The position numbers and the translations under genes are program-made. This document shows, one piece after another, positions 41,716 to 64,000 of a stretch of 64,000 bases of DNA (position 1 is its first letter; each line of letters begins with the position of its first letter). The stretch lies in assembly GCF_964355755.1 (NCBI RefSeq), contig NC_092672.1, forward strand, positions 24,672,501-24,736,500, in the 5' to 3' direction. The notes below the pieces were generated by a model, which searched no databases, was not told the origin of the DNA, and worked only from the letters and a program-made list of their open reading frames with translations. This stretch comes from Antedon mediterranea (Eukaryota > Echinodermata > Crinoidea > Comatulida > Antedonidae).

Positions 41716-44700
41716 GTTTAATCCATTGCATATAATAACAGATGCAATGGTTAAAACAACGGTGTGTACACCAGATGCCAGTAACAAAGAAATGTTGAAA
41801 GAAACAACGCAGGATATTTGTAAGTATTCACTTTATTCAGATACATGCTGCAACCAAAATAGATGATTTATTTATATTTTTAAATTTATTTTTTATAATT
41901 ATTTAGGAAAATTGCCAAAGATAACCATAGCGAATTAATTCAAGGTAGCAATCATGTTCACAAGACAAACATACACAAGATGCTCTACATAAACAAAGTC
42001 TTATTACAAGTCTTTGGGAGTGGAGATTTGTCATTAGAAAAAATCCTGGAATATGACAGGGCTTCAACCCAGGACCCTTCAATTGGTAGCCAAGCATCAT
42101 AACCACCAAGCCACAACTCTACTCCAAATTTAAAATTCACCCTGACTCATGCACTGTCATGTCACAACTTGTTTTTAATTTTTTTACCAAATAATTGTTG
42201 TTCTCATGTCATTGTAAATTAATTGAATAGACCTCTAGGTTTAATATTTGGGTGACAATTTGCGACTACGGTAGTTCTTGCACACACTTTGATATTTCAT
42301 AAATGCATGGAGAAAACCACTACCATATAAACATACAAGTTATTTAAATTCAATTTGAGGATAAATTAGTTTTTAAATTATTGCAACAACATCATAAAAA
42401 TGGTTTCAAAGTTTCTATGCTTTTAAAAAACAAATGTAACTGTGTAAGAAATAAAATAATATATACAGGATTTTATTAACATTTTTTAATTTAAAAGCTT
42501 TAGACATGTATGAGGATGCTGTCACTGATGTCACAGTTAAACAAATGTTGAAAAGTCCACGCCATACAAAAGGATACACACCAAGAGCAGGACCATCAAA
42601 GCAGGAAACAAAATCTGGTAAAAGATTTTAATGAAAGTTAAATCAAATTTACTTAAAATTTCTTTATTGTTATTGTAATCTGCTGTAAAATAAATTAATA
42701 AGTATAAACATAAAAGGCACAAAATACCAATCAATATAAAATTGGTACAAAAGAGATTTTTTTAAATAAATTTAATATAAAAGTTTTGATAAAAGACTTT
42801 ATACAGCATTTTGCTGTGATTACTGCTGTGACATTTGAATTCAAATAGAGAATACAAAAGATACACATATTATAATGATGATGGCAAATTGGATCAGGTG
42901 GGAATCGGCAAAAAATGATTTATTACACTAACCTTTGTTCTTGCCGAGTTAATTTGATTCTAAAACATAATGATGAATGCTAATAACAAGGTAGCATCTT
43001 TAATTATATCAACACAATTTTCAGAAAGTAGACATGAGAAAAATAAAAACCCCACAGGAGCATCAACATCAAAACAGGAAGCCAAATCTGGTGAAACATC
43101 AACAAGTTCAAATCATATGCCAAACCCACAAAAAGAGGGTAAATATTTATTTTGAAATGTGTTTGATTGTGCTGTTCATACATATTAATGATATCAGAAA
43201 TAAAGACTAAAAGTGCTAAATATTGAAATGATTAAAGGAGCGGAAATTTAATCATAATCATCAGTGTCTGCTAATGAACATATATTATCTTGCGAGTTAC
43301 TTTGACAGTTAATACTAATACTTGTATATTGTATGACACTGCTGTGTAATCTATTCAACTTGCAGTACAATGTGGTTAAATAAACTCATCACTAAACTAT
43401 TGATTGGAAAGGATAAGGTTTAGAATACTTAAATATTGCATTGGAAATACTTTTTCTTTAAATAAAAAAGTTATAGTTGGTAATCACAATTGAGGAGACC
43501 TGCAAGTTGTTGTATGTGTTATATATTTTATCACAACAGAACCAGTGTATGAAGAAAAACCAGAAATTCCTAAAGGGTTCAGGAACAAATTTGTAAGCAA
43601 ACTTCGCTCTGCAAGAGAAGGTGGTGACTCTAAAGTAGATAGCAACAAGTTTGTTATGCATATCTGGGACTTTGGTGGTCAACCAATTTACCATGTGATA
43701 CAACGGGTAAATTTTATTGGTGTATTTAATTTGTATTAATAGAGATTATAATATTAATACTATAATATTCAATATACATGCCTTCTTCTGAGCGTCTGTT
43801 AGTTTCAGTGTATACTTTGTCTTTTGGCCTTGTTACAATATGAGCACTGAAATCAAAAAGCTTGCTCACTTGATTTGAAGTTAAGAACCTATAATCTTCC
43901 TCCAAGGTATTACAAAAATGTGGATCTAATATAGTACAATATGTCAGTATCAGATATAAAATACAATTATTATTATTATTACAATATTATAAATTATTTT
44001 ATTCTTCATTTAATTTAATAAAGACAACTCGGTCTCTAGTCCCTAATTACCAGAAACCAAACCCAGAATTGAGGTCTAAAGTTCCAAATTCTTTTTTACC
44101 TTTAAACATACATTTGGAATATCAGAATTTCTGTAAACCAAGACATATTATGCCAGCCGAATGGTGTCCAGTTTTGGGAGACTTTAAGTAAAATAGTATT
44201 AATTGATGTAATATAATGTATTATTAGCAGAGAGGGATAGCAAAGAAAGAATGTAATATTAAACATTCATTATTTATTAAACCAATGATTAAGATTGTAA
44301 ATGTTTCCAAGGTTAACATGCACTTTGTGAGGAAAACAAAAGTATCAAATAATCAGTTGTGCCAGTATACTGACACATGTGTATAAACAGTTTGTAATAT
44401 TGACTATTATGATTATGTTTACTAGATATTCATGGTGTCTTATGCTGTTGTATGTGTGGTGTTCAACATGAATGAAGGTCTTAATGCCCCAGCTAAAGTT
44501 CGTGATCCAACTACTGTAAGTAGATTTTACAAATTTCAAATGTTTATGTAATTGTACATAAATAAATTGTTTCCTTCATGTTATTCTTTACCTTAACACA
44601 AACTGTGCAAATAGCAGATGCCTGATATATGATTGTTGTTATTTCCACTTCCATGATAGTGTTGTTAATAGCAGATGCCTGATATATGATTGTTGTTATT

Positions 44701-47700
44701 TCCACTTCCATGATAGTGTTGTTAATAGCAGATGCCTAATATATGATTGTTGTTAATTCCACTTCTATGATAGTTTTGTTAATAGCAGATGCCTGATATA
44801 TGATTGTGGTTATTTCCACTTCCATGATAGTGTTGTTAATAGCAGATGCCTGATATATGATTGTTGTTATTTCCACTTCTATGATAGTGTTGTTAATAGC
44901 AGATGCCTGATATATGATTGTTGTTATTTCCACTACTATGATAGTGTTGTTAATAGCAGAATCCTGATATATGATTGTTGTTAATTCCACTTCCATGATA
45001 GGGTTGTTAATAGCAGATGCCTGATATATGATTGTTGTTAATTCCACTTCTATGATAGTGTTGTTAATAGCAGATGCCTGATATATGATTGTTGTTATTT
45101 CCACTACTATGATAGTGTTGTTAATAGCAGATGCCTGATATATGATTGTTGTTAATTCCACTTCCATGATAGTGTTGTTAATAGCAGATGCCTGATATAT
45201 GATTGTTGTTATTTCAACTTCTATGATAGTGTTGTTAATAGCAGATGCCTGATATATGATTGTTGTTAATTCCACTTCCATGATAGTGTTGTTAATAGCA
45301 GATGCCTGATGGTTTCCCATGCCTGATATATGATTGTTGTTATTTCCACTTCCATGGTAGTGTTGTTAATAGCAGATGCCTGATAATGATATATGATTGT
45401 TGTTATTTTCACTTCCATGATAGTGTTGTTAATAGCAGATGCCTGATATATGATTGTTGTTAATTCCACTTCCATGATAGTGTTGTTAATAGCAGATGCC
45501 TGATATATGATTGTTGTTATTTCCACTTCCATGATAGTGTTGTTTTTCTATTAATTTGTGCTGCTAATAATAATAGATAATTTGTCAAACTAGAACTTAA
45601 AAAATTTTAAATGTAAATTTTGTTCATTTTTTTTTTATTTAGGGAAAAGTTTATGAACATCGAATGACAAATCTTGACTTCATTCTGTTTTGGATTCGTT
45701 CTGTTTTTGTAAACGTAAGAAAAGGAAAAAATAACAAGATAATGCTGATTGGTACACATTATGAGAGCCTTGGTAAAACTGAACAAGAAAGACAACAAAG
45801 GGTACATATGTCATCACATTTCCTTTTAAACAGTGCAAAATTGTATATTGTCATTAATTCATTGGAAACAATATGTAGTTTCATCTCTAACATTGGCAAT
45901 CATGTATGATTGTTTTATACGTCATGTCATGAGCATACTACTGTACTGTGCTGGCTTATGATTAACTAATTAACTTAACTTAATTTTTTTTTCATTTCGA
46001 TATAATAAAACAAATAAAAGGGTATACAAATATCTATGATTTAGCACACATTTTGAATATGTTTTCTTATATTGGTTACAATGTACACTGGGTAAGTAAA
46101 TGCGTAACATAACTTAAATGAAACATTTTTTGCACTTTACAAAAGGGGTTTTGGTTGGCTAAGCACACTCTAAATCTTCCCTTGACATAAGTATAATTCA
46201 AATATGATGTTATTTATTTTAGGTAAAGGAAATAGAGAATATACTTTGGAAAGCCATGGAAGGAAAACCATTTGAGGACATGGTGTATCAAGGAGAGCTC
46301 TTTACCATTGAAAACAGTGTCTCATTTGAAAAGAGCGGTGCTTCTAAAATCATCCTCAAAATACAAAAATTAGTCCAGATGATGATTCTTACTTTTCCAA
46401 TTAAATGGCTACAAGTACTGCTGGAAATACAACAGTTACGAAAAGCCAAATTATATCTACCAACATCTGAGGTTAGAATAAAATATCTTTAACAGATTGA
46501 TTGATGAATGTGTCTTTTAATGTTTAACATCCATTACATTTAAAGCAATAAACCCTGTTTTTGCATTGAATGGTGTTAATTATAGTGAAAAAAAAGCAAA
46601 CTTGTTTTTATTACATTTGAAATTGTGTGGGATACAAGTTTGTTATTGATAGTAATATAACAGTAATCCCTGCTTTTCTGTCTGTGTTAATTGACTGTTT
46701 ATGGTGAATCTTCAACAAATGAGTGTTTGAAGTGAATCTTCAAACAGGAACGGTGCAATTTTAGTAGAGTACCAAGTACCAAAACAAAAGGAACATTTTT
46801 TGTCCTCTAATAATTATTGAAGTAAGTGGTGAACCTTGAGTTTACTGTTGGTTGGGAAAATTTCAGAATTCAAATCTACCCTTGCATGATAAAGTATTAT
46901 GTCCTATATAGACAACCTTTCAACAACGAAATGAATGATAACATCAACAGAAAACCAGTTTGTAATTAATCAGCATTTATTTTTTTCATTACATTTTTCA
47001 TTATGATATTTATTTAACTTTTAGATTAATGATTTACTTGCTCGTTGTAAGATAACTGACAGAAAACTGTTTCTTGAGTACTTGCATGACATCGGCGAAA
47101 TTCTGTTCTACCCGGATGACAAGATCCTCAAAGAAAAAATTGTTATAGATTTGATGGGAGTAGTTGACAAGTTTAAAACAATCATCACAGTTATAGATCC
47201 CAGCATTCAGGTTAGTAAACTTCACTTCTTTGAGTGGTGTCAATCATTGGTGAATATCATCAGACGTAAACATTGTGGTAATCTTTTTTTAGTGTGATGC
47301 ATTTACCCGTATCCGGATATTCACCCCCTGGACATTTACCCCCCGGACAACTACCCCCCGGACAACCACCACCTGGACCACTACCCCCTTAGGACAACTA
47401 CCCCTTTAGGACAACTACCCCCCGGACAAATACCCCCCGGACAACTACCCCCTTAGGACAACAACCCCCTTAGGACAACTACCCCCTGGACAACTACCCC
47501 CCGGACAATTACCCCCCGGACAATTACCCCCTAGGAACAATTACCCCCCGGACAATTACCCCCCGGACAATTACCACCCAGAAAACTATCCCTTTAGAAC
47601 ACCCTAACCACCCAGACCATTCAACAACCTGACTCTGCAACAGTGTATAATAGGAATTAATAACTATATTTTAATTCGTTACTTTGACGAATTACTATTC

Positions 47701-50700
47701 ATTATTGTAAACAAAAGTAAAAGATTGAACATAAATATAGCCTGGTATAAACTGAAGATCGTCACACATGATCATAGGATAGTCGAACGTATTATATAGT
47801 ACTCCCTGTATTTACTGTAAAGACTGGGTTCGCTAATAATAATAATAATTTTTGCGTCAGGACAATGCTTCGATAACCACTGGTCTTAAAAGAATTAATA
47901 TTTGTCTCAAATTTGTCATATATGTATTTTTGTACACTTGAAGAAAAATATCACTTTTGATATTTGACCTCAATGTTCACTCACCGAATAAACGTCGATC
48001 TTTAAATAAATTCCCCTCAAATAAACGGTGACCATGTGACTCCCATGAAACATCATATGGAATAATCGGCGTCTATTTCCATTAGATTATACCCCCTCCC
48101 ATTGAATAAACAACTTTCTTCCAATAAATGTCCACCTAAAAACCACCTAAACAATAAACAGCCCAGGCCGTTTTTTCAATAAATACGATACTTTAAATCT
48201 AGCACATCTAGGGTCTAGCGTGCTGTTAAACAGAATAATCGGTTAAAAACGGGTGTTTCGAAACTAGAGACCCGAGACCAGAGACCAGAGACCCGAGACC
48301 CAATACGAAAAGGGAGACCCACGTACGAAAAGGGAGACCCCACTATACGAAAAGGGAGACCCCACTATACGAAAAGGGAGACACTAATATACGAAAAGGG
48401 AGACCTAAATATACGAAAAGGGAGACCCAATTATACGAAAGGGAGACCCAAATATACAAAATGGGAGGCCCAAATATACGAAAAGGGAGACCCACTATAA
48501 GAAAAGGGAGACCCACTATAAGAAAAGGGAGACCCCACTATACGAAAAGAGAGACCACACTATACGAAAAGGGAGACCCTAATAATATACGAAAAGGGAG
48601 ACCCAAATATAGGTCTCCCTTTTCGTATTGGGTCTCGTTTCAGGTCTCTGGTCTCGGATCTCTAGTTTCGAAACACCCGTTAAAAACAGATGATTTCATT
48701 TTTACAGAAACCGGTCCTATATATTTGTCTACTTTTGGATGGGGGGGGGGGGGGTAGTTGACCGGGGGGTAGTTGACCGGGGGGTAGTTGACCGGGGGTA
48801 GTTACCCGGGGGTAGTTATCCTAAGGGGGTGGTTGTCAGGGGGGTAGTTGTCCGGGGGGTTGTTATCCTAAGGGGGTAGTTGTCCTAAGGGGGTAGTTGT
48901 CCGGGTGGTAAACATCCGGGGGGTAACTGTCTAGGGGGTAGGTGTCCTAGAACCGAAAAGGGAGACCCCCCTATACGAAAAGGGAGACCCTAATATACGA
49001 AAAGGGAGACCTAAATATACGAAAAGGGAGACCCAATTATACGAAAGGGAGACCCAAATATACAAAATGGGAGACCCAAATATACGAAAAGGGAGACCCA
49101 CTATAAGAAAAGGGAGACCCACTATAAGAAAAGGGAGACCCCACTATACGAAAAGAGAGACCACACTATACGAAAAGGGAGACCCTAATATACGAAAAGG
49201 GAGACCCAAATATAGGTCTCCCTTTTCGTATTGGGTCTCGTTTCAGGTCTCTGGTCTCGGATCTCTAGTTTCGAAACACCCGTTAAAAACAGATGATTTC
49301 ATTTTTACAGAAACCGGTCCTATATATTTGTCTACTTTTGGATGGGGGGGGGGTAGTTGACCGGGGGGTAGTTGACCGGGGGGTAGTTGACCGGGGGGTA
49401 GTTACCCGGGGGGTAGTTATCCTAAGGGGGTAGTTGTCCTAAGGGGGTGGTTGTCCGGGGGGTAGTTGTCCGGGGGGTTGTTATCCTAAGGGGGTAGTTG
49501 TCCTAAGGGGGTAGTTGTCCGGGGGGTAGTTGTCCGGGGGGTAGTTGTCCTAAGGGGGTAGTTGTCCGGGTGGTAAACATCCGGGGGGTAACTGTCTAGG
49601 GGGTAGGTGTCCTAGAACCGCATTTACCTGCAAAAATGTAATATCTGCCACACAGAGAACGAAATTATACCTTATTATTTCTATTATATTCTAATAAACA
49701 TATTACTGTAGCACTCCCATTAAGGGAAGACCCAACAAAGTGTCCCCTTAATAGACGTTAGCCATGGTCTTAATCTGTCTCTCTTTCATTTCACAAGTAA
49801 GTTTTAATAAGGTTTAAGGGAAGGCCCAACAAAGTGTCCCCTTAATAGACGTTAGCCATGGTCTTAATCTGTCTCTCTTTCATTTCACAAGTAAGTTTTA
49901 ATAAGGTTTAAGGGAAGACCCAACAAAGTGTCCCCTTAATAGAGGTTAGCCATGGTCTTAATCTGTCTCTCTTTCATTTCACAAGTAAATTTTAATAAGG
50001 TTTAAGGGAAGGCCCAACAAAGTGTCCCCTTAATAGAGGTTAGCCATGGTCTTAATCTGTCTCTCTTTCATTTCACAAGTAAGTTTTAATAAGGTTTAAG
50101 GGAAGGCCCAACAATGTGTCCCCTTAATAGAGGTTAGCCATGGTCTTAATCTGTCTCTCTTTCATTTCACAAGTAAGTTTTAATAAGGTTTAAGGGAAGG
50201 CCCAACAAAGTGTCCTCTTAATAGAGGTTAGCTATGGTGTTAATCTGCCTCTCATTCATTTCACCAGTAAGTTTTAATAAGGTTTAAGGGAAGACCCAAC
50301 AAAGTGTCCCCTTAATAGAGGTTAGCTATGGTGTTAATCTGCATCTCATTCATTTCACCAGTAAGTTTTAATAAGGTTTAAGGGAAGGCCCAACAAAGTG
50401 TCCCCTTAATAGAGGTTAGCTATGGTGTTTATCTGCATCTCATTCATTTCACTAGTAAGTTTTAATAAGGTTTAAGGGAAGGCCCAACAAAGTGTCCCTT
50501 AATAGAGGTTAGCTATGGTGTTAATCTGCCTCTCATTCATTTCACCAGTAAGTTTTAATAAGGTTTAAGGGAAGGCCCAACAAAGTGTCCCCTTAATAGA
50601 GGTTAGCTATGGTGTTAATCTGCCTCTCATTCATTTCACCAGTAAGTTTTAATAAGGTTTAAGGGAAGGCCCAACAAAGTGTCCCCTTAATAGAGGTTAG

Positions 50701-53700
50701 CCATGGTCTTAATCTGTCTCTCTTTCATTTCACAAGTAAGTTTTAATAAGGTTTAAGGGAAGGCCCAACAAAGTGTCCCCTTAATAGAGGTTAGCCGTGG
50801 TATTAATCTGCCTCTCATTCATTTCACAAGTAAGCTTCAATAAGGTTTTCCCAAAGGAGAGGTTCTACTGACCAGAAGAATAACAATTACTTTGTTGCAT
50901 TAACAAATTACACTTTTGTGCTTTTATATTTTTTTAGCCATCTCTGAAACAGCTTTGGAGAAATTTAAATGGGGGCAAACTAGATGAAAGACTGTTGCAG
51001 CATATTTGGAAGGATGAGTCAAATGAGATGATTGACTTCTTTGTGTCTCTGATGCAAACCTTTGGGTTAATGTGTGAAAAAAGGAGTAAAGAGGTATTTA
51101 CATTTTATTTTAAATATTTAATTCAATTATTTTTTAATATATTCCATCTACTACTCATGTTCTATTTTTTTTTCTATAGAATGTTGGACGAATGTTCTAT
51201 GTTCTTTCACGCCTAAAGCCCCTACGTGATGATACAGAGGCTGTTGAATATGAAGAGAAACATGCTGTTTCTCTCTTTCATGACTTTGATGGCTACCTTC
51301 CAGATGATCTCTTTCAACGGGTTGCGACTACATTTATCGAGGAATTTCAAATGGAAGATGTTGAGCCTACATTATCTTACGAGCATGTAGAACTGAACAT
51401 TGATGGCCATCATCTTGTCATTCTAAATGTAGCTACCATCAACAATTGCCGTTTGTTCCAGGTAAACTTGATAATGCAATCATGCCGTGAATGCCAGTAA
51501 AATCACAAGTATTTTATTGGGGGATTGTTCTTATGTTGTTTATTATATGTTTATTAAACCATTTCTTTGTTTTTGTTGGTCACCACTTCTGGATATAACA
51601 GATATTAAAATATACACTGTCAGTAACTTTAAATTTACTTGGTTTATTGCCATTTCTGGAATGATATCAGTAGTAATCACTTTGGAATTGATTTGTTTTT
51701 TATATTGCAGACAACAATTGTCAGAACGACAATCATGAACACAAAATCAGGAAGTAGCTCTCCTGAAGATGATGATCCACAACCTAGCATCTGTAAGAAG
51801 GTAAACTATAAGTACCAAATAAACTAATGTTATCTATGGCCCTGTTTCTGCTGCCAACTAAATACCGTATATTATACGGTATTTTTTGAATACCGTATAT
51901 ATACGGTATATTTTTGGCAGCAGAAACTGCGCTCATAAAAAATATACCGTATTTTGTATACCGTATTTTCTCCACAAAATTTGTGGATAAAATACGGTAT
52001 TTACAAATTTATACCGTATTTTTTGTACCCGTTTCTGCTGCCAATAAAAAATACCGTATTTTTTTTTTACATGACAAAAGGTCACCATTCGTGTTTTTAT
52101 TTTCTGTCGCTGTTAGCTGCTTTACACACATGTATAGATATATTCGGCGAAAATGTGGAGCGAATACGTCATATTTTTACTAAATAAATGTGTGTGGGGA
52201 AGCTAAAATGTCTGACCAACTAAAAGGTAATAAAAGGGACAACCACATTTATAAAGACATTTCTAAAAAAATAAAGCAGGAGTATGGAATAAACTTGTCT
52301 CCAAAGCAAGTAAACTCAAAGCTGAAGAGCCTGCGAAAGCAGTACAACATTGCAAAATACAATAACTCGGGGAGGGAACGAATTAATTGTCCCCATTACG
52401 ATGTTTTCTGTGCTCTCACAACATCTCTATCACTAGGGCTAGGCTGTTGAAAGTGAGACGTAAAACTTCCTTTATTTCGACTTTTAATTATCGATCAAAT
52501 AAATGAATGGCAATTTGGGTAAAAAAGATGAAATTTAACACGACCACCCAAGAAGTATTGTTAGCAGAAACGGGGTACTAAAAAATACGGTATAAAAAAT
52601 ACCGTATTTTTATACCGTATTTTGAGCAGTTGCAGCAGAAACAGGCCCTATGCCTTGTTTTGTCAGTGTAAATTTATAAGCTCCTGGGTTGTTTTTGAAT
52701 GATTATAAATGTCTGTGTAAATATGTAATATAAGATATAAGATAAGACAAGATATAAGTATTATTATTTTTCTCTTTAAATCATCTTAAATGTAGTGAAG
52801 TCATTTTATTGAGATTATTTGAAATATTTTTTTTTTCTAGGTCCTTAATTTCCTTGAAAAAGAATTGCAAGTTTTAAGTCAGAATGGTGCACGTGGTGTT
52901 GAAGTAAAGATGTACATCCGTTGTGCATGTTTAAATAGTGAACGTACTCATATGCAGGTTGTTCGCAAATTTGACCAAGATGTGTTGCCATGTAAAAGCA
53001 AAGCAATGGACGTGAAACGTTACCGTAAACTGTTTGGAGAAATAAAAGATGAACAAGGTATATGCCTAATAATCCATAATACATATGACATAAAACAAAA
53101 CAGGCAAACATTCTTATTTTTGTTCTTTAACTAATGATATTCCAAACCTCAAATTTTCAGTTGATGCATTTTAACCTTTATCTCTAGTTTTTATTTTACA
53201 TGTAAAAAATACCTTTGCTTAATGATGTTTTATCATTTGTATTTAGCTTCTATCTCAAAATCTAATACTGACCAACCTTCTTCTATAAAGAAAAGAAAAA
53301 CCGCTTTAGAAAATTCTTATAATGCGAGTGGCAGCGATGCCCAATCTTCTTTATCAAAAGTTCAAAGAACTACTGGTAATGTTTTATGTTGTTGGTTAGC
53401 ATAATAACAACACCATTTTGTTTTATTCAAGAAATAACTTTACTCATTATATTTCTATTATAAAAACTATGCACACAATTTATTTTATTTGCAATTATAC
53501 ACGCCTCAGTGTATCCTTGTCTTCATACACGCCTCAGTGTATCCTTGTCTTTATACACGCCTCAGTGTATCCTTGTCTTTATACACGCCTCAGTGTATCC
53601 ATGTCTTTATACACGCCTCAGTGTATCCTTGTCTTTATACACGCCTCAGTGTATCCTTGTCTTTATACACGCCTCAGTGTATCCTTGTCTTTATACACGC

Positions 53701-56700
53701 CTCAGTGTATCCTTGTCTTTATACACGCCTCAGTGTATCCTTGTCTTTATACACGCCTCAGTGTATCCTTGTCTTTATACACGCCTTAGTGTATCCTTGT
53801 CTTTATACACGCCTCAGTGTATCCTTGTCTCTATACACGCCTCAGTGTATCCTTGTCTTTCTACACGCCTCAGTGTATCCTTTCCTTTATACACGCCTCA
53901 GTGTATCCTTGTCTTTATACACGCCTCAGTGTATCCTTGTCTTTCTACACGCCTCAGAGTATCCTTGTCTTTATACACGCCTCAGTGTATCCTTGTCTTT
54001 ATACACGCCTCAGTGTATCCTTGTCTTTATACACAAGTGTGTTTGAATGCACAACTGTCGTTTCAGCAGAATCATCCTGGATCGTGGAATACCCTCCAGA
54101 ACCCGATGGGTATTTTTGCCTGAAATGTAGACCGAAATGTATTGTTGGTTTGTGGTTGTTGTGATTGTTCACCGTGTGCTAAGTTGTGCAAAAGGTCCAC
54201 GCGGACGGTGGCCCAAGAGCACTTTGTGAGCGGAAGTGACGGTCGTACAGTTGCCATGAAGTCGGATATTATTTGTTTAGGCTTTGAATGAATTTCAGAT
54301 AAGTAAATAATTCTTGCAGATCTTGAGGGTGGGCGGACAGGTATATGGTTGCAAAGTCAAAGAAAGCTGTGAACCACTCCTGTTCATCTAACCCCTCTTT
54401 TCAATTTAGGGACAAGTTCAAGACCCCCATTGTATTGTATATTGAACGTCATTGGTGGGTCACGGGAGCGAAGATCACACATGTCGACAAACCTATGGGC
54501 CTGAATTTTATTCTTTAGGGTTTCAGAAAGAGCTCCAGCCTTGACCCCACCGGAATAGTAGAAAGGATTGGAAATAAGATTTCCTTTGGCCAGAGGGATA
54601 GGGATATGTTTACATTATGGCGTGGTACTATCGCTAATTGTATCAATTTTCTGGGGGATGCCCGTCGTGAGGTCTCATTCAGCGGGAAGATCAGTTCGGA
54701 CATTCGATGATGTTAGTAATATCAACTGTCGACGATGGGTTACCCTTCAATTGTTGAACCTCGGCGGAAAGGTTTTTAACAATCGCCGTAAGTTCTGCCA
54801 GTTCCGTTGCCCCAATTTTCTTAGGCCTCCTCTTGGCAGGTGTGTTGGTTTTTGCCTTCTTAATGGGTCGAGTCTTTGCATCATGTAGATATGGAAGGCA
54901 ACAAACAACTGACATATACCATTTTAAATCTCTATGTTTTATAGCCTCTTTATCTAACCACTAGACTAGACTCATTAATGTACAATAGATAGCATGTGAT
55001 GGATCATGTAGATATGGAAGGCAACAAACAACTGACATAGACCATTTTAAATCTCTATGTTTTTGTAGCCTCTTTATCTACCCACTAGACTAGACTCATT
55101 AATGTACAATATATAGCATATGATGGATCATGTAGATATGGAAGGCAACAAACAACTGACATAGACCATTTTAAATTTCTATGTGTTTGTAGCCTCTTTA
55201 TCTATCCACTAGACTAGACTCATTAATGTACAATATATAGCATATGATGGATCATGTAGATATGGAAGGCAACACACAACTGACATAGACCATTTTAAAT
55301 CTCTATGTTTTTGTAGCCTCTTTATCTACCCACTAGACTAGACTCATTAATGTACAATAGATAACATCTGATGCATCATGTAGATATGGAAGGCAACAAA
55401 CAACTGACATATACCATTTTGAATCTCTATGTTTTTATAGCCTCTTTATCTACCCACTTGACTAGACTCATTGTACAATAGATAGCATCTGATGCATCAT
55501 AGATATGGAAGACAACACACAACTGACATAGACCATAGCAGAACAGTGCATTGAATCAATTGTGATACTGTACTCTTGATTATGAATAATATATATCTGT
55601 TTTTTTGTATAGATACACAGACTGCTGCTCCTCTGGCTACAAGCTCGTTAGGGACAGGTTAGTGGTTATCATTATGTATCGTATGGACAGTTTGTCTGAA
55701 AATACATGAATATACATAATAGCATAACATCTTGGTGTCATTAGCAGAATAGTTGATTTGATACTGGTATTCTTGATTATGACTAATGTATATGTTTATT
55801 TTGCATAGATGCACCTATTGCTGCTCATTTGGCTGCAAGCTCATTAGGGACAGGTATAGGTGAGTAACATTAGATCATTAGGGACAGGTATAGGTGAGTA
55901 ACATTAGATCATTAGGGACAGGTATAAGTGAGTAACATTAGATCATTAGGGACAGGTATAGGTGAGTAACATTAGATCATTAGCGACAGGTATAGGTGAG
56001 TAACATTAGATCATTAGGGACAGGTATAGGTGAGTAACATTAGATCATTAGGGACAGGTATAGGTGAGTAACATTAGATCATTAGGGACAGGTATAGGTG
56101 AGTAACATTAGATCATTAGGGACAGGTATAGGTGAGTAACATTAGATCATTAGGGACAGGTATAGGTGAGTAACATTAGACCATTAGGGACAGGTATAGG
56201 TGAGTAACATTAGATCATTAGGGACAGGTATAGGTGAGTAACATTATATCATTAGGGACAGGTATAGGTGAGTAACATTATATCATTAGGGACAGGTATA
56301 GGTGAGCAACATTAGATCATTAGGGACAGGTATAGGTGAGTAACATTAGATCATTAGGGACAGGTATAGGTGAGTAACATTAGATCATTAGGGACAGGTA
56401 TAGGTGAGTAACATTAGATCATTAGGGACAGGTATAGGTGAGTAACATTATATCATTAGGGACAGGTATAGGTGAGTAACATTAGATCATTAGGGACAGG
56501 TATAGGTGAGTAACATTAGATCATTAGGGACAGGTATAGGTGAGTAACATTAGATCATTAGAGACAGGTATAGGTGAGTAACATTAGATCATTAGGGACA
56601 GGTATAGGTGAGTAACATTATATCATTAGGGACAGGTATAGGTGAGTAACATTAGATCATTAGGGACAGGTATAGGTGAGTAACATTAGATCATTAGGGA

Positions 56701-59700
56701 CAGGTATAGGTGAGCAACATTAGATCATTAGGGACAGGTATAGGTGAGTAACATTAGATCATTAGGGACAGGTATAGGTGAGTAACATTAGATCATTAAG
56801 GACAGGTATAGGTGAGTAACATTAGACCATTAGGGACAGGTATAGGTGAGTAACATTAGATCATTAGGGACAGGTATAGGTGAGCAACATTAGATCATTA
56901 GGGACAGGTATAGGTGAGTAACATTAGATCATTAGGGACAGGTATAGGTGAGTAACATTAGATCATTAAGGACAGGTATAGGTGAGTAACATTAGATCAT
57001 TAGGGACAGGTATAGGTGAGTAACATTAGATCATTAGGGACAGGTATAGGTGAGTAACATTAGATCATTAGAGACAGGTATAGGTGAGTAACATTAGATC
57101 ATTAAGGACAGGTATAGGTGAGTAACATTAGATCATTAGAGACAGGTATAGGTGAGCAACATTAGATCATTAGGGACAGGTATAGGTGAGTAACATTAGA
57201 TCATTAAGGACAGGTATAGGTGAGTAACATTAGATCATTAGAGACAGGTATAGGTGAGCAACATTAGATCATTAGGGACAGGTATAGGTGAGTAACATTA
57301 GATCATTAGGGACAGGTATAGGTGAGTAACATTAGATCATTAGGGACAGGTATAGGTGAGTAACATTAGATCATTAGGGACAGGTATAGGTGAGCAACAT
57401 TAGATCATTAGGGACAGGTATAGGTGAGTAACATTAGATCATTAGGGACAGGTATAGGTGAGTAACATTAGATCATTAGAGACAGGTATAGGTGAGCAAC
57501 ATTAGATCATTAGAGACAGGTATAGGTGAGCAACATTAGATCATTAGGGACAGGTATAGGTGAGTAACATTAGATCATTAGGGACAGGTATAGGTGAGTA
57601 ACATTAGATCATTAGGGACAGGTATAGGTGAGTAACATTAGATCATTAGGGACAGGTATAGGTGAGCAACATTAGATCATTAGGGACAGGTATAGGTGAG
57701 TAACATTAGATCATTAAGGACAGGTATAGGTGAGTAACATTAGATCATTAGGGACAGGTATAGGTGAGTAACATTAGATCATTAGGGACAGGTATAGGTG
57801 AGTAACATTAGATCATTAGGGACAGGTATAGGTGAGTAACATTAGATCATTAGGGACAGGTATAGGTGAGTAACATTAGATCATTAGGGACAGGTATAGG
57901 TGAGTAACATTAGATCATTAGGGACAGGTATAGGTGAGTAACATTAGATCATTAAGGACAGGTATAGGTGAGTAACATTAGATCATTAGGGACAGGTATA
58001 GGTGAGTAACATTAGATCATTAGGGACAGGTATAGGTGAGTAACATTAGATCATTAGAGACAGGTATAGGTGAGTAACATTAGATCATTAAGGACAGGTA
58101 TAGGTGAGTAACATTAGATCATTAGGGACAGGTATAGGTGAGTAACATTAGATCATTAGGGACAGGTATAGGTGAGTAACATTAGATCATTAGAGACAGG
58201 TATAGGTGAGTAACATTAGATCATTAGGGACAGGTATAGGTGAGTAACATTAGATCATTAGGGACAGGTATAGGTGAGTAACATTAGATCATTAGGGACA
58301 GGTATAGGTGAGTAACATTAGATCATTAGAGACAGGTATAGGTGAGTAACATTAGATCATTAAGGACAGGTATAGGTGAGTAACATTAGATCATTAGGGA
58401 CAGGTATAGGTGAGTAACATTAGATCATTAGGGACAGGTATAGGTGAGTAACATTAGATCATTAGGGACAGGTATAGGTGAGTAACATTAGATCATTAGG
58501 GACAGGTATAGGTGAGTAACATTAGATCATTAGGGACAGGTATAGGTGAGTAACATTAGATCATTAAGGACAGGTATAGGTGAGTAACATTAGATCATTA
58601 GGGACAGGTATAGGTGAGTAACATTAGATCATTAGGGACAGGTATAGGTGAGTAACATTAGATCATTAGGGACAGGTATAGGTGAGTAACATTAGATCAT
58701 TAGAGACAGGTATAGGTGAGTAACATTAGATCATTAGGGACAGGTATAGGTGAGTAACATTAGATCATTAGGGACAGGTATAGGTGAGTAACATTAGATC
58801 ATTAGGGACAGGTATAGGTGAGTAACATTAGATCATTAGGGACAGGTATAGGTGAGCAACATTAGATCATTAGGGACAGGTATAGGTGAGTAACATTAGA
58901 TCATTAGGGACAGGTATAGGTGAGTAACATTAGATCATTAAGGACAGGTATAGGTGAGTAACATTAGATCATTAGGGACAGGTATAGGTGAGTAACATTA
59001 GATCATTAGGGACAGGTATAGGTGAGTAACATTAGATCATTAGGGACAGGTATAGGTGAGTAACATTAGATCATTAGAGACAGGTATAGGTGAGTAACAT
59101 TAGATCATTAGGGACAGGTATAGGTGAGTAACATTAGATCATTAGGGACAGGTATAGGTGAGTAACATTAGATCATTAGGGACAGGTATAGGTGAGTAAC
59201 ATTAGATCATTAGGGACAGGTATAGGTGAGTAACATTAGATCATTAGGGACAGGTATAGGTGAGTAACATTATATCATTAGGGACAGGTATAGGTGAGTA
59301 ACATTAGATCATTAGGGACAGGTATAGGTGAGTAACATTAGATCATTAGGGACAGGTATAGGTGAGTAACATTAGATCATTAGGGACAGGTATAGGTGAG
59401 TAACATTAGATCATTAGAGACAGGTATAGGTGAGTAACATTAGATCATTAGGGACAGGTATAGGTGAGTAACATTATATCATTAGGGACAGGTATAGGTG
59501 AGTAACATTAGATCATTAGGGACAGGTATAGGTGAGTAACATTAGATCATTAGGGACAGGTATAGGTGAGTAACATTAGATCATTAGAGACAGGTATAGG
59601 TGAGTAACATTAGATCATTAGGGACAGGTATAGGTGAGTAAGATTAGATCATCAGGGACAGGTATAGGTGAGTAACATTAGATCATTAGGGACAGGTATA

Positions 59701-61894
59701 GGTGAGACATTAGATCATGAGGGACAGGTATAGGTGAGTAACATTAGACCATTAGGAACAGGTATAGGTGAGTAACATTAGATCATTAGGGACAGGTATA
59801 GGTGAGTAACATTAGATCATTAGGGCAGTGTTACAACCACTTATGTAGTACTAGCTATATAAAAGCTACTGCTAAGAGAGAAACAATAAAGATATCATAT
59901 CATTTATTTCATTTGAACAAATACAAACATGAAAACATAACAAATGTAAATCAATGAGGCACGATTACCTAAAATAACAGCAGAGAAGCCAAAATTAGAC
60001 ATTCAAACATTTTTAAAACATAATTAAAATACATTTTTTGGAAGAAAGTTAAAATTGCTGTATATGAATGACAAGATAGTTTAAATTGTATGAAGTTAAA
60101 TGTATTACAGCAAAATCCACCACAGGTTAGCTAATTCTTTAAAATAATCAAAGCCGAACAAATCAGAATGGAATCGTGCTCATATTTCTTCTAACTTTCA
60201 GAAACATCAAATTATCAACATTATTTTCTTTGATATTATTAATTTGAATACTATAATAACAATTTTCAAATAGTAGACAAAACTTTTCTACGTAGGAAAG
60301 GTGGTCAAAATAATAACTAAAACATCCTTGAAAACAAAACAGCAATTTGTTAAGAGATTGATTCACACACATATATATATATATAAACTTTTATGGGGAT
60401 AAAAATGCAATAATTATCCATCATTTGTTTTGCAGAAAATACATTGCAAGAAAAGTATTTATATTACTAAAATATAAATATGCTTATTTTGCGGTGAAAT
60501 ATTTTAAGATTTGTTTAAGAGTGACTAGTATCAATCATAGTATAATAATTCTCAAACACTTGTTTTTGTAGTGAATACATCACAAGAACAATTCAACAAG
60601 TTGAAGTATGATCTTGGTTCACTCTATATTGGTGAGCGACTGCTGTTGTTGAAATGCTGTCTATTTGAACACGTAGACTTACAGCATCTTGGCAAGTCAA
60701 GTTGCACAGCAAATTACCTATTAAACCAACTACATGAACGTCGTTATATCACACCTACTAATATCCGTCTGTTGCTAGAGGTGGCTGAGATTTCACAGTT
60801 GAAAGATGCTGAAGATCTCATAAATCAATATGTGGTAACCAACAAGGTTCCAAACACTGATGAAGATATAAAGTCAGTTTCACCATATAGGAAACGATTG
60901 TGCAAGGCATTGCAGCAATTTGATCCACATAATTTAAATGATGTAATTGCTTACTATGGATTGAACTTATTAAGTTTACCAACAATTTGGGAATTAGTGT
61001 TTCACCTTGAAAGCAATAGAAAATTACTAGAAGAATCAGAAATAAAGAGGTTGGCTGAGCTTCTTGGACCAATCGCTGAGAGCATACTATTCAATGGTAT
61101 GTATGTTGTATCATGTATAAACATCATTTATAACAATTGAAGTTAATTTATGTGATTTCTTACATACACAGTGTGATTATAAATAATGTAAGCCATGTAA
61201 AGTATATTCAACTATAAATCTCATCATATTTAAATATTGATAGCATAACCTGCATCATTACACCAGCATTGTTAAAAGAGTAAAAATCAATCTCATAATT
61301 ATACTGTAAGACACATGTAAAGACCATTTGCACTGTACACAATATCTTGTTTGACACAACTTTATCTATGTTTGTTAAAGAGTAATTACTAATTTTTAAG
61401 AACAGAAAGTTTACACATTCACATTTTGAACACTTTGTTGACATTAAAAGTCTTTTATACTGAAGAAAAAACTTGCCTATCACAAATAGGCCTATGTGCA
61501 TAGAAACATGCCCTTAGAAATAAGAGTACCTTTTTGAATGGGCCTGCCTTGCCTATCCATGCAAAAATCTATTAGAAAATATGTATTTTTAAAATTTGTT
61601 CCTATGTTTTTGTTATAGTTTTGTAAAAAAAAAAATGAAAACAAATTTGAATTGAATGTTACCTATGATGACTTAAATGGCCTGTTTCAACTACGATACT
61701 ATACAATAAAAGTTTTTCTAATTTTTTTTTCAGATGAAGGAGCAATTCCACTTCTACCCAAGCAGACAATTGAAAGAGTACCACAAACATGTGAAAATAT
61801 CAAGACAATACTATTGCCATGCAAGGCAACCGAACGACTAGGGTATCGTAACCAAAACGAGTATCATTACTATGCAAGACAACCAAACAAGTAG
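41716..61894 (+). CDS. ROCO-family (Roc-COR) protein with death-effector-like domain, multi-exon
   Basis: Exons placed by GT-AG borders and matching phases: 41716-41819, 42504-42617, 43025-43138, 43540-43706, 44426-44515, 45643-45801, 46223-46471, 47025-47210, 50938-51093, 51180-51461, 51711-51800, 52841-53057, 53247-53375, 55613-55657, 55809-55853, 60572-61096 and 61734-61894 (TAG). Domain order: polar N-terminal linker, Roc GTPase (WDFGGQPIYH, then IMLIGTHYE), COR, polar linker, death-effector-like region. Roc-COR proteins are large GTPases that signal as dimers; death-effector folds mediate homotypic assembly in apoptosis and innate immunity. A cytosolic scaffold role is inferred. The first exon listed starts in mid-codon, and the Roc P-loop is not seen, so 5' exons are missing. 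Most large introns and the last exon contain tandem repeats. No kinase or leucine-rich repeats are visible. Confidence 0.8.
41935..42117 (-). mobile_element. tRNA-derived SINE
   Basis: On the minus strand the head reads GTGGCTTGGTGGTTATGATG (A-box-like TGGCTTGGTGG) and, 40 nt on, CCTGGGTTGAAGCCC (B-box-like with one base missing), followed by a body shared in inverted orientation with 41265-41430. It lies in an intron of the ROCO gene. Confidence 0.7.
42504..43138 (+). other. Two 114-nt duplicated exons in the N-terminal linker
   Basis: Exons 42504-42617 and 43025-43138 are both 114 nt, both phase 1 at the 3' end, and encode similar endings (GPSKQETKSG and STSKQEAKSGE). This points to exon duplication of a disordered Lys/Ser-rich linker. 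Confidence 0.6.
43540..45801 (+). other. Roc GTPase domain exons
   Basis: Exon 43540-43706 carries the G3 motif WDFGGQPIYHVIQR. Exon 44426-44515 continues with the hydrophobic strand (FMVSYAVVCVVFNMNEG). Exon 45643-45801 has the FWIRSVFVNV helix and IMLIGTHYE at the G4 position, where Roc domains usually have T/NK-x-D or GTH-x-D. The Asp of G4 is replaced by Glu. The P-loop was not found. Confidence 0.8.
44622..45545. repeat. 57-bp minisatellite, about 16 copies, in an intron
   Basis: Unit ATAGCAGATGCCTGATATAT plus GATTGTTGTTATTTCCACTT plus CCATGATAGTGTTGTTA. Since 57 is divisible by 3, the minus strand stays open for long stretches with a 19-residue repeat; this is a by-product, not a gene. 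Confidence 0.92.
47308..49619. mobile_element. 2.3-kb minisatellite-filled element with 9-bp target duplication
   Basis: Flanked by GCATTTACC on both sides (47299-47307 and 49620-49628). The left end is a C-rich array (CCCCCGGACAACTA, 47315-47600). The right end is the inverted G-rich array (GGGGGTAGTTGTCC, 48740-48960 and 49345-49615). Outer ends are imperfectly inverted (GGATATTCACCCCCTGGACA against GGACACCTACCCCCTAGACA). A ~600-bp internal block is tandemly duplicated. No transposase. A 9-bp duplication would fit a MULE-like family, but that is only suggestive. Confidence 0.65.
48251..48678. mobile_element. 428-bp nested element with 9-bp target duplication
   Basis: Ends GGGTGTTTCGAAAC and its exact inverse, flanked by GTTAAAAAC (48242-48250 and 48679-48687). 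The body is a ~20-bp tandem repeat, ACGAAAAGGGAGACCCAAAT with variants. A partial second copy of its right end (about 49200-49278) comes from the tandem duplication of the host element. Confidence 0.75.
49730..50870. repeat. 94-bp minisatellite, about 12 copies, in an intron
   Basis: Each unit contains CTGTCTCTCTTTCATTTCAC followed by AAGTAAGTTTTAATAAGG and AGGCCCAACAAAGTGTCCCC. The pyrimidine tract plus AG, followed at once by GTAAGT, looks like a 3' and a 5' splice site side by side. Confidence 0.92.
51838..52648. mobile_element. PIF/Harbinger-like non-autonomous element in an intron
   Basis: 811 bp. Ends GGCCCTGTTTCTGCTGC and inverse (GCAGCAGAAACAGGCCC), flanked by TAT on both sides (51835-51837, 52649-52651). 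Twelve copies of ATACCGTAT/ATACGGTAT lie near the ends, together with internal copies of the terminal GTTTCTGCTGCC word. It carries part of a Myb/SANT-like ORF. Family assignment rests on the 3-bp duplication, end sequence and Myb-like ORF. Confidence 0.75.
52190..52450 (+). pseudogene. Myb/SANT-like DNA-binding protein fragment
   Basis: 86 codons (a second ATG at 52208). The stretch NHIYKDISKKIKQEYGINLS, then KQVNSKLKSLRKQYN and CPHYDVF, fits helices 2-3 of the Myb/SANT-like domain of PIF/Harbinger accessory proteins, which bind the transposon ends. Helix 1 with its conserved Trp is missing, so this is a truncated remnant inside the element. Confidence 0.6.
53498..54035. repeat. 28-bp minisatellite, about 19 copies, in an intron
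   Basis: Unit ACACGCCTCAGTGTATCC followed by TTGTCTTTAT. The three forward frames are open through most of it because the unit lacks stops; this is not coding evidence. Each unit places a pyrimidine-rich stretch before CTCAG, acceptor-like. Confidence 0.95.
54060..54870 (-). pseudogene. Relic of a retroelement Gag-like protein
   Basis: On the minus strand, in pieces with frameshifts and stops: a Lys/Pro-rich start with AELTAIVKNLSAEVQQL, then PLAKGNLISNPF and IQAHRFVDMCDL, then EQEWFTAFFDFATIYLSAHP, LFTYLKFIQSLNK and WQLYDRHFRS. The W..AF...Y....P...L..Y and YD..FR pattern is that of Gag-like proteins near DIRS/tyrosine-recombinase-type elements. No RT is present. It lies in a ROCO intron in antisense orientation. 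Confidence 0.45.
54870..55535. repeat. About 123-bp minisatellite, five to six copies, in an intron
   Basis: Unit includes ATCATGTAGATATGGAAGGC, CAACTGACATAGACCATTTT and CACTAGACTAGACTCATTAA. The last copies are more diverged. Confidence 0.9.
55613..55853 (+). other. Two duplicated 45-nt micro-exons
   Basis: 55613-55657 encodes D-TQTAAPLATSSLGTG and 55809-55853 encodes D-APIAAHLAASSLGTG (first codon split). Both have phase 1 at each end and similar upstream introns (TTGATTATGA...), so either can be skipped or duplicated without a frameshift. Confidence 0.65.
55842..59828. repeat. 34-bp minisatellite, about 117 copies, starting at a 5' splice site
   Basis: The unit is TCATTAGGGACAG (identical to the last 13 nt of micro-exon 55809-55853) plus GTATAGGTGAGTAAC plus ATTAGA. 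It is continuous for ~4 kb with few variants (GTGAGCAAC, AGAGACAG, AAGGACAG, TATATC). Each unit has two donor-like sites, ACAG|GTATAG and ATAG|GTGAGT. Confidence 0.95.
59829..60571. other. Remaining intron sequence before the death-effector-like exon
   Basis: AT-rich. Contains AACAATAAAGATATCATATC near 59880, possibly the end of an old retroelement, and a (TA)n run near 60370. The acceptor at 60569-60571 follows TTGTTTTTG. No gene. Confidence 0.4.
60572..61096 (+). other. Death-effector-like exon, possibly two folds
   Basis: 175 codons. Residues ~8-90 (LKYDLGSLYIGERLLLLKCC, then NYLLNQLHERRYITPTNIRL and LKDAEDLINQYV) have the helix pattern of death effector domains. Residues ~105-170 (RKRLCKALQQFDPHNL, YYGLNLLSLPTIWELVFHLE, IKRLAELLG) repeat a similar pattern and may be a second, diverged fold. 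Confidence 0.65.
61097..61733. other. Intron before the last exon
   Basis: Donor GTATGT at 61097, acceptor TTTTTTTTCAG ending at 61733. No gene or repeat recognised. Confidence 0.6.
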
Positions 61895-64000
61895 GGTACC
61901 GTAACCAAAACGAGTATCATTACCATGCGAGAAAACCAAACGAGTAGGGTACCGTAACCAAAACTAATATCATTACCATGCGAGACAACCAAAGGAGTAG
62001 GGTACCATAACCAAAACGAGTACAGTATCATTAATATACGAGACAAACAAACGAGTATGGTACCGTAACCAAAACGAGTAGGGTACCTTAACCAAAACGA
62101 GTAGCATTACCATGCAAGACAACCAAACAAGTAGGGTACCGTAACCAAAACTATTATCATTACCATGTGAGAAAACCAAACGAGTAGGGTACCGTAACCA
62201 AAACAAGTATCATTACCATGCAAGACAACCAACAAGTAGGGTACCGTAACCAAAACTATTATCATTACCATGTGAGAAAACCAAACGAGTATGGTACCGA
62301 ATCATAATGAGTATCATTACCATGCAAGACAACCAAACAAGTAGGGTACCATAACCAAAACCATTATCATTACCATGCGAGAAAACCAAACGAGTAGGGT
62401 ACCATAACCAAAAAGAGTATAATTACCATGCAAGACAACCAAACGAGTAGGGTACCGAATCATAATGAGTATCATTACCATGCAAGACAACCAAACAAGT
62501 AGGGTACCATAACCAAAACGAGTATCATTACCATGCGAGAAAACCAAACGAGTAGGGTACCATAACCAAAACGAGTATCATTACCATGTGAGACAACCAA
62601 ACGAGTATGGTACCGTAACCAAAACAAGTATCATTACCATGTGAGACAACCAAACAAGTAGGGTACCGTAACCAAAACAAGTATCATTACCATGCGAGAA
62701 AACCAAACGAGTAGGGTACCGTAACCAAAACAAGTATCATTACCATTTGAGACAACCAAACGAGTATGGTACCGTAACCAAAACGAGTAGGGTACCTTAA
62801 CAAAAACGAGTAGCATTACCATGCAAGAAAACCAAACGAGTAGGTTATCGTAACCAAAACGAGTAGGACACAGTAACCAAAACGAGTATCATTACCATGT
62901 GAGACAACCAAACGAGTATGGTACTGTAACCAAAACGAGTAGGGTACCTTAACCAAAACGAGTAGCATTACCATGCAAGACAACCAAACGAGTAGGTTAT
63001 CGTAACCAAAACGAGTATCATTACCATGCAAGACAACCAAACAAGTAAGGTACCGTAACCAAAACAAGTATCATTACCATGTAAGAAAACCAAACGAGTA
63101 GGGTACCGTAACCAAAACGAGTATCATTACCATGCAAGACAACCAAACAAGTAGGGTACCGTAACCAAAACAAGTATCATTACCATGTGAGAAAACCAAA
63201 CGAGTAGGGTACCGTAACCAAAACGAGTATCATTACCATGCAAGACAACCAAACAAGTAGGGTACCGTAACCAAAACAAGTATCATTACCATGCAAGACA
63301 ACCAAACAAGTAGGGTACCGTAACCAACACAAGTATCATTACCATGTGAGAAAACCAAACGAGTAGGGTACCGTAACCAAAACGAGTATCGTTACCATGC
63401 AAGACAACCAAACAAGTAGGGTACCGTAACCAAAACAAGTATCATTACCATGCAAGACAACGAAACGAGTAGGGTACCATAACCAAAACAAGTATCATTA
63501 CCATGCAAGACAACCAAACAAGTAGGGTACCGTAACCAAAACAAGTATCATTACCATGTGAGAAAACCAAACGAGTAGGGTACCATAACCAAAACGAGTA
63601 TCATTAATATACGAGACAAACAAACGAGTAGGTTACCGTAACCAAAACGAGTATCATTAATATACGAGACAAACAAACGAGTAGGGTACCATAACTAAAA
63701 CGAGTATCATTACCATGCAAGACAACCAAACAAGTAGGGTACCGTAACCAAAACTATTATCATTACCATGCGAGAAAACCAAACAAGTAGGGTACCGAAT
63801 CATAATGAGTATCATTACCATGCAAGACAACCAAACAAGTAGGGTACCATAACCAAAACAAATATCATTACCATGCGAGAAAACCAAACGAGTATGGTAC
63901 TGAACCAAAAACGAGTATCAATACCATGCGAGACAACCAAACGAGTATGGTACCGTAACCAAAACGAGTAGGGTACCTTAACCAAAACGAGTAGCATTAC
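61816..64000. repeat. About 53-bp minisatellite overlapping the last coding exon, runs off the window
   Basis: Unit TACCATGCAAGACAACCAAA plus CAAGTAGGGTACCGTAACC plus AAAACGAGTATCAT with many variants and partial units; about 40 copies are visible. The first one and a half units are inside the reading frame of the last exon and supply its final ~25 residues and the TAG stop (61892-61894). The right limit is beyond 64000. Confidence 0.93.

Follow-up and report, generated by a model that had tools for sequence, protein, structure and literature searches.

The window, the whole 64 000 nt stretch of DNA that was analysed (G000:C3:24672501-24736500, in a genome of 354 Mb), carries a predicted Roco-type (Roc-COR) gene. 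This assignment follows from the match of the joined upstream exons to COR-A (PF16095, E = 3.6e-12, 46.8 bits versus a curated cut-off of 35.3), together with a weak match to Roc (PF08477, E = 0.01, under the curated cut-off) in one exon, an earlier open reading frame. The exons and the other features of the locus are collected in Table 1. The downstream exon is 525 nt long, and for the domain that it encodes no match was found in Pfam or the PDB. A single-sequence structure model of this domain is all-helical with a mean pLDDT of only 47, and a death-effector name for it was dropped as it has neither profile nor structure support.

Table 1. Features of the predicted Roco gene, with positions in the window (a slash marks an exon-intron border).
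Feature	Position	Strand	Remarks
ORF with weak Roc match	43494-43736	+	IWDFGGQP; E = 0.01, below curated cut-off
ORF with first part of COR-A	47025-47294	+	
Two COR exons of the Roco gene	50938-51460	+	Intron ~51092-51180
Predicted linker exon	53248-53374	+	Ends ACTG/gtaatg, phase 1; read by eye
Micro-exon 1	55613-55657	+	45 nt, homologous to micro-exon 2, phase 1-1
Micro-exon 2	55809-55859	+	Encodes DAPIAAHLAASSLGT(GI), phase 1-1; length 45 nt if spliced at donor 1 (after 55853) or 51 nt if at donor 2 (after 55859)
34 bp minisatellite	55841-59825	+	117 units, TCATTAGGGACAG/GTATAG/GTGAGTAACATTAGA; Tandem Repeats Finder and direct count
Donor 1 of unit 1	55854-55855	+	CAG/GTATAG; broken in 2/19 paralogs
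Donor 2 of unit 1	55860-55861	+	TAG/GTGAGTAAC; intact in 19/19 paralogs; strongest U1 pairing
In-frame TAA	55865-55867	+	Reached if the unit 1 donors are unused
AATAAA	59885-59890	+	Directly behind the array, with ATTAAA or ACTAAA in other paralogs
Downstream exon, predicted helical domain	60572-61096	+	Acceptor tttttgtag/TG, donor AATG/GTATGT, phase 1-1
Predicted last coding exon	61734-61896	+	Terminates at a TAG within the first part of a 53 bp array

Both micro-exons encode 15-residue variants of one peptide that ends in SSLGT. At one other locus (L011:3950-4150) an older micro-exon and its intron are present as a tandem duplicate with a period of 99 bp, and introns of 54 nt may be in use there.

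The 3' end of micro-exon 2 runs directly into the minisatellite. Tandem Repeats Finder assigns it a period of 34 bp with 117.3 copies, 97% matches, 0% indels and a score of 7620, and direct counting gives 117 cores of the form GGTATA(A/G)GTGAG, of which 115 spacings are 34 bp and one is 32 bp. The sequence AGGTGAGTAA occurs in 105 copies within the array, while AGGTGAGT is found in two copies in the window outside it. Each unit comprises the last 13 bases of the exon, donor 1, donor 2 six bases further on, and 15 bp of intron. An earlier note on this DNA had described about 117 tandem 5' splice sites in a 34 bp unit built from an exon-intron junction, starting from a micro-exon with two donors 6 nt apart. 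Count, unit and micro-exon sequence all agree with our analysis, as does the array itself, except that its true end is at 59825 and not at 59828. The further claim of a near-consensus donor in every unit holds for the GT of donor 2, which is present throughout the array of the window, but position +6 of donor 2 is C rather than T in about ten units, one unit reads TAA/GTGAGT and one other has a 2 bp deletion after GTGAG. Near-identical head-to-tail units of about 10-100 bp and a variable copy number, here 0 to 117 among paralogs, define a minisatellite; with a consensus donor in each unit and an array that is continuous with the 3' end of an exon, the present one is, at the level of sequence, a splice-donor minisatellite. 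An Rfam scan of the window gave no match.

The U1 genes of the same genome have the 5' end ATACTTACCTG, which is complementary to the donor. At least 42 U1 snRNA genes are present, in a tandem cluster (G000:C5:15664856-15752909) where they are mostly about 1.7-1.9 kb apart. The predicted U1 duplex reaches -12.5 kcal/mol for donor 2 and -8.2 kcal/mol for donor 1, compared with -14.0 kcal/mol for a perfect site. Among 69 tandem-repeat entries of the sampled sequences, with overlapping periods counted separately, only this array has such a donor, and the runner-up is at -8.2 kcal/mol. Comparison of the paralogs identifies donor 2 as the conserved donor, a point that the earlier note missed: its sequence GGTGAGTAA is intact in all 19, and the exon length up to donor 2 (51 nt in the paralogs, 57 nt in L009) is divisible by three in every one of them. 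Donor 1 is broken in L005 (CAA/GT) and in L009. The frame-preserving length, the intact donor 2, the loss of donor 1 in two paralogs and the better pairing with U1 indicate that the functional micro-exon 2 is probably the 51 nt form ending in SSLGTGI rather than the 45 nt form (55809-55853) proposed earlier.

Both donors of unit 1 keep the frame, as had been noted before; what had been overlooked is that, in our gene model, they are the only productive ones. Reading past both gives GGT ATA GGT GAG TAA, so that splicing from later donors would include the stop codon and give a truncated product.

Relatives of the downstream exon are found at many loci. In 18 of 20 loci on C3 this exon is on the same strand as the micro-exon and 0.8-4.8 kb beyond it, and in 17 of these 18 it joins in phase 1. 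The exception, L047 (G000:C3:23715400-23716200), is the sole paralog in which it has lost its acceptor AG. An array-free homologue (L038, C4:26380000-26386500) has COR, the linker and the same downstream domain within about 4 kb, and among the matches listed that lie within 15 kb of the downstream exon, COR is upstream in 22 cases versus downstream in six. These comparisons favour an intronic position of the array, between micro-exon 2 and the downstream exon, where the inferred exons on either side join in phase 1. The predicted intron from donor 2 to the acceptor is 4712 nt long and 84% of it is array; its counterpart in one unexpanded paralog is about 750 nt (hand count). The downstream exon is open in all 17 copies checked and has a pN/pS of 0.65-0.73, which suggests that it is still translated in the array-bearing genes.

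A polyadenylation-like signal directly follows the array, another feature absent from the earlier description, with AATAAA starting 60 nt beyond the array end. Together with the in-frame TAA of unit 1, the AATAAA or ATTAAA found in this position at many loci could mean that the array serves as 3' UTR, either of an alternative last exon or of the true one, read through to SSLGTGIGE-stop and cleaved after the hexamer. We regard this as quite improbable, and as a sole form it is unlikely, though it may occur as a minor isoform. The hexamer is ACTAAA at four loci, and the 3' UTR was set aside as the main form because the downstream exon, present at the 18 loci mentioned above, is in phase at all but one of them and follows the COR and linker exons in the array-free homologue as well.

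About 20 loci in the interval 19.8-25.1 Mb of C3 have the same micro-exon, with the array present or absent. A genome-wide pattern search returned 316 forward matches and none in reverse, and the arrays catalogued at the C3 paralogs sum to about 316. As they account for nearly all matches, the 34 bp repeat is, judged by this search, confined to one cluster of paralogous genes. The earlier note had named arrays at unrelated loci as the mark of an ordinary satellite; none was found genome-wide, and the repeat is better described as that of a gene family. The same search speaks against a dispersed satellite or a transposon-borne repeat, the one piece in a neighbouring intron belonging to the same gene family. 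That piece (L031:600-965 in G000:C3:23705300-23707600) has ten units, is located in the intron that follows the downstream exon and is detached from any micro-exon. The number of units per locus is 117 in the window and 41, 33, 18, 17, 16, 15, 14, 13, 10, 7, 3 and 2 elsewhere; two loci have a single unit (L014, L015), and in four (L016-L019) the repeat is absent, with no downstream TCATTAGGG. The nearest relative of the window locus has ten units (tree support 99/90). The flanks differ mostly by a few percent among paralogs with 0 to 117 units.

From these comparisons we think it rather likely that the array is a mostly neutral intronic minisatellite derived from a donor-spanning duplication, with a donor of unit 1 used and the rest removed with the intron. 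The founding event would be a duplication that spanned the 3' end of the micro-exon and its donor. TCATTA(GGG) occurs both at the exon end and, 34 bp further on, in the adjoining intron, which points to an origin by slippage or unequal exchange seeded by this shared sequence, after which the array would have grown through repeat instability. Minisatellites are commonplace in this genome, covering 1-49% of five other 10 kb samples and 52% of positions 43001-64000 of the window. Constraint on the donors appears to be weak: donor 2 columns hold nine of the 59 distinct variants where 15.6 are expected (p = 0.03, in a variants-per-column test that ignores sequence-specific mutability). This depletion, which runs against neutrality, could be weak selection, but as a test for selection on the array donors it gave a weak signal only. 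Weak constraint, the abundance of minisatellites and the detached piece in the following intron together argue for a largely neutral repeat, and the array resembles a repeat that has run away more than an established regulator.

Transcription of the gene, the choice of donor and the neutrality of the array are inferred here. The spliceosome would most likely splice from unit 1, mainly at donor 2 (TAG/GTGAGT, 51 nt exon), since exon definition, with an acceptor just 51 nt upstream, and co-transcriptional order are generally known to favour the first donor. The other 116 units would leave with the 4.7 kb intron. Their donors would probably be bound by U1 and then released, and be used in a minority of transcripts; these would carry the TAA at 55865 and would either be degraded or yield a truncated protein (...SSLGTGIGE). 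Exon definition predicts use of unit 1, whereas a proximity rule, under which splicing reportedly prefers the intron-proximal donor when two are comparable (PMC6002489), predicts use of the last or late units and so stands against this choice. The later units might then act as decoys, such that long arrays mostly yield truncated Roco or targets of nonsense-mediated decay and copy number lowers or switches the output. The stop codon included by all donors after unit 1 would fit, as would the human IFI6 gene, where downstream repeat units serve as alternative donors (PMC4526556). We nevertheless judge decoy donors to be unlikely: exon definition generally disfavours very long internal exons, and the intact downstream exon, with the pN/pS values given above across paralogs, is probably still made.

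The earlier note had also suggested that the array could act as a U1 sponge or another regulator of expression. A titration of cellular U1 snRNP by the pre-mRNA would be in line with its 117 strong predicted U1 sites. U1 is, however, generally known to be among the most abundant nuclear RNAs, and with the number of U1 genes found here a single intron could not titrate it unless very strongly transcribed; we consider a sponge highly improbable. The slight donor constraint, a copy number that ranges from 0 to 117 and the fragment in the neighbouring intron all speak against the regulatory proposals, and the latter two are more easily explained by a freely mutating minisatellite than by a sponge.

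The proximity of the array to AATAAA allows a role in telescripting, in which U1 snRNPs on the array would silence the signal and thereby keep the downstream domain in the transcript, with better protection from longer arrays. In human, mouse and Drosophila, U1 shields transcripts from polyadenylation within introns (PMC5499120). In exon 1 of ER-alpha two competing donors are 33 nt apart, a distance described as roughly the minimum at which two U1 particles can bind at once (PMC6002489); the comparable donors of the Roco array are spaced by 34 nt, likewise near this limit, but number 117 instead of two. AATAAA is present at seven of the 11 loci with at least seven units and at none of the eight with three or fewer. 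This association was rejected as evidence since five of the eight low-copy loci form one clade, so that hexamer and copy number are confounded by shared descent. One donor is, moreover, normally known to be enough, and the copy number is erratic. We assign telescripting a small chance; roles as a sponge or in telescripting are possible but unsupported. The predicted arrangement resembles known telescripting in that U1 sites precede an AATAAA within the intron, and differs in that these sites form a tandem array, a situation for which we know of no other telescripting case.

A slightly slimmer chance is given to array length as a tuning device, where the number of U1 sites would set the balance between full-length Roco and a form truncated before the last domain, through either donor competition or protection from the AATAAA that follows the array. 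If so, the sister genes of the cluster would differ in output by repeat number alone.

Splice-donor minisatellites are already known, and the closest precedent, which the earlier note did not mention, is that of human IFI6 (6-16, G1P3). The IFI6 minisatellite reportedly has a 12 bp unit in about 26 copies. It lies at the 3' end of an exon and its units supply splice donors, with downstream units used as alternative donors to give several isoforms (Turri, Cuin and Porter 1995, Nucleic Acids Res 23:1854, cited in PMC4526556). The Roco array shares, at the level of sequence, the position at an exon 3' end and the donor in each unit. New with respect to IFI6 are a longer unit of 34 bp, which is not a multiple of three, far more copies (117, over 4 kb), two donors per unit, later donors that bring in a stop and break the frame, and a copy-number series across a paralog cluster, all in an unrelated animal gene.

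It is a long-standing question how the spliceosome selects one donor when many are equal. The main value of the cluster is that it forms a natural dose series for donor choice (0, 1, 2, 3, 7, 10-18, 33, 41 and 117 units) in otherwise nearly identical flanks, a ready-made test among identical splice sites with a clean readout, as only the donors of unit 1 keep the frame. It also illustrates how an intron can fill up with splice sites once a duplication has crossed an exon border, while the downstream exon is apparently spared.

Other repeats are present in the same gene. Further arrays lie in its introns at 44610-45544 (57 bp × 12 to 16), 49720-50848 (94 bp × 12) and 53495-54034 (28 bp × 19). 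A second minisatellite at 61813-63993 (53 bp unit, about 40 copies) starts within the last predicted coding exon and provides the stop codon of that exon. Between the COR and linker exons, an open reading frame at 52184-52447 contains a Myb/SANT-like DNA-binding domain (PF13837, E = 3.5e-13). Repeats of 15 bp, GGACAACTACCCCCC, occur in both orientations at 47323-47601, 48749-48947 and 49348-49612, alongside 22 bp repeats at 48303-48611 and 48954-49214. The 15 bp motif recurs on a different chromosome (L033), suggesting that it may be a mobile unit.
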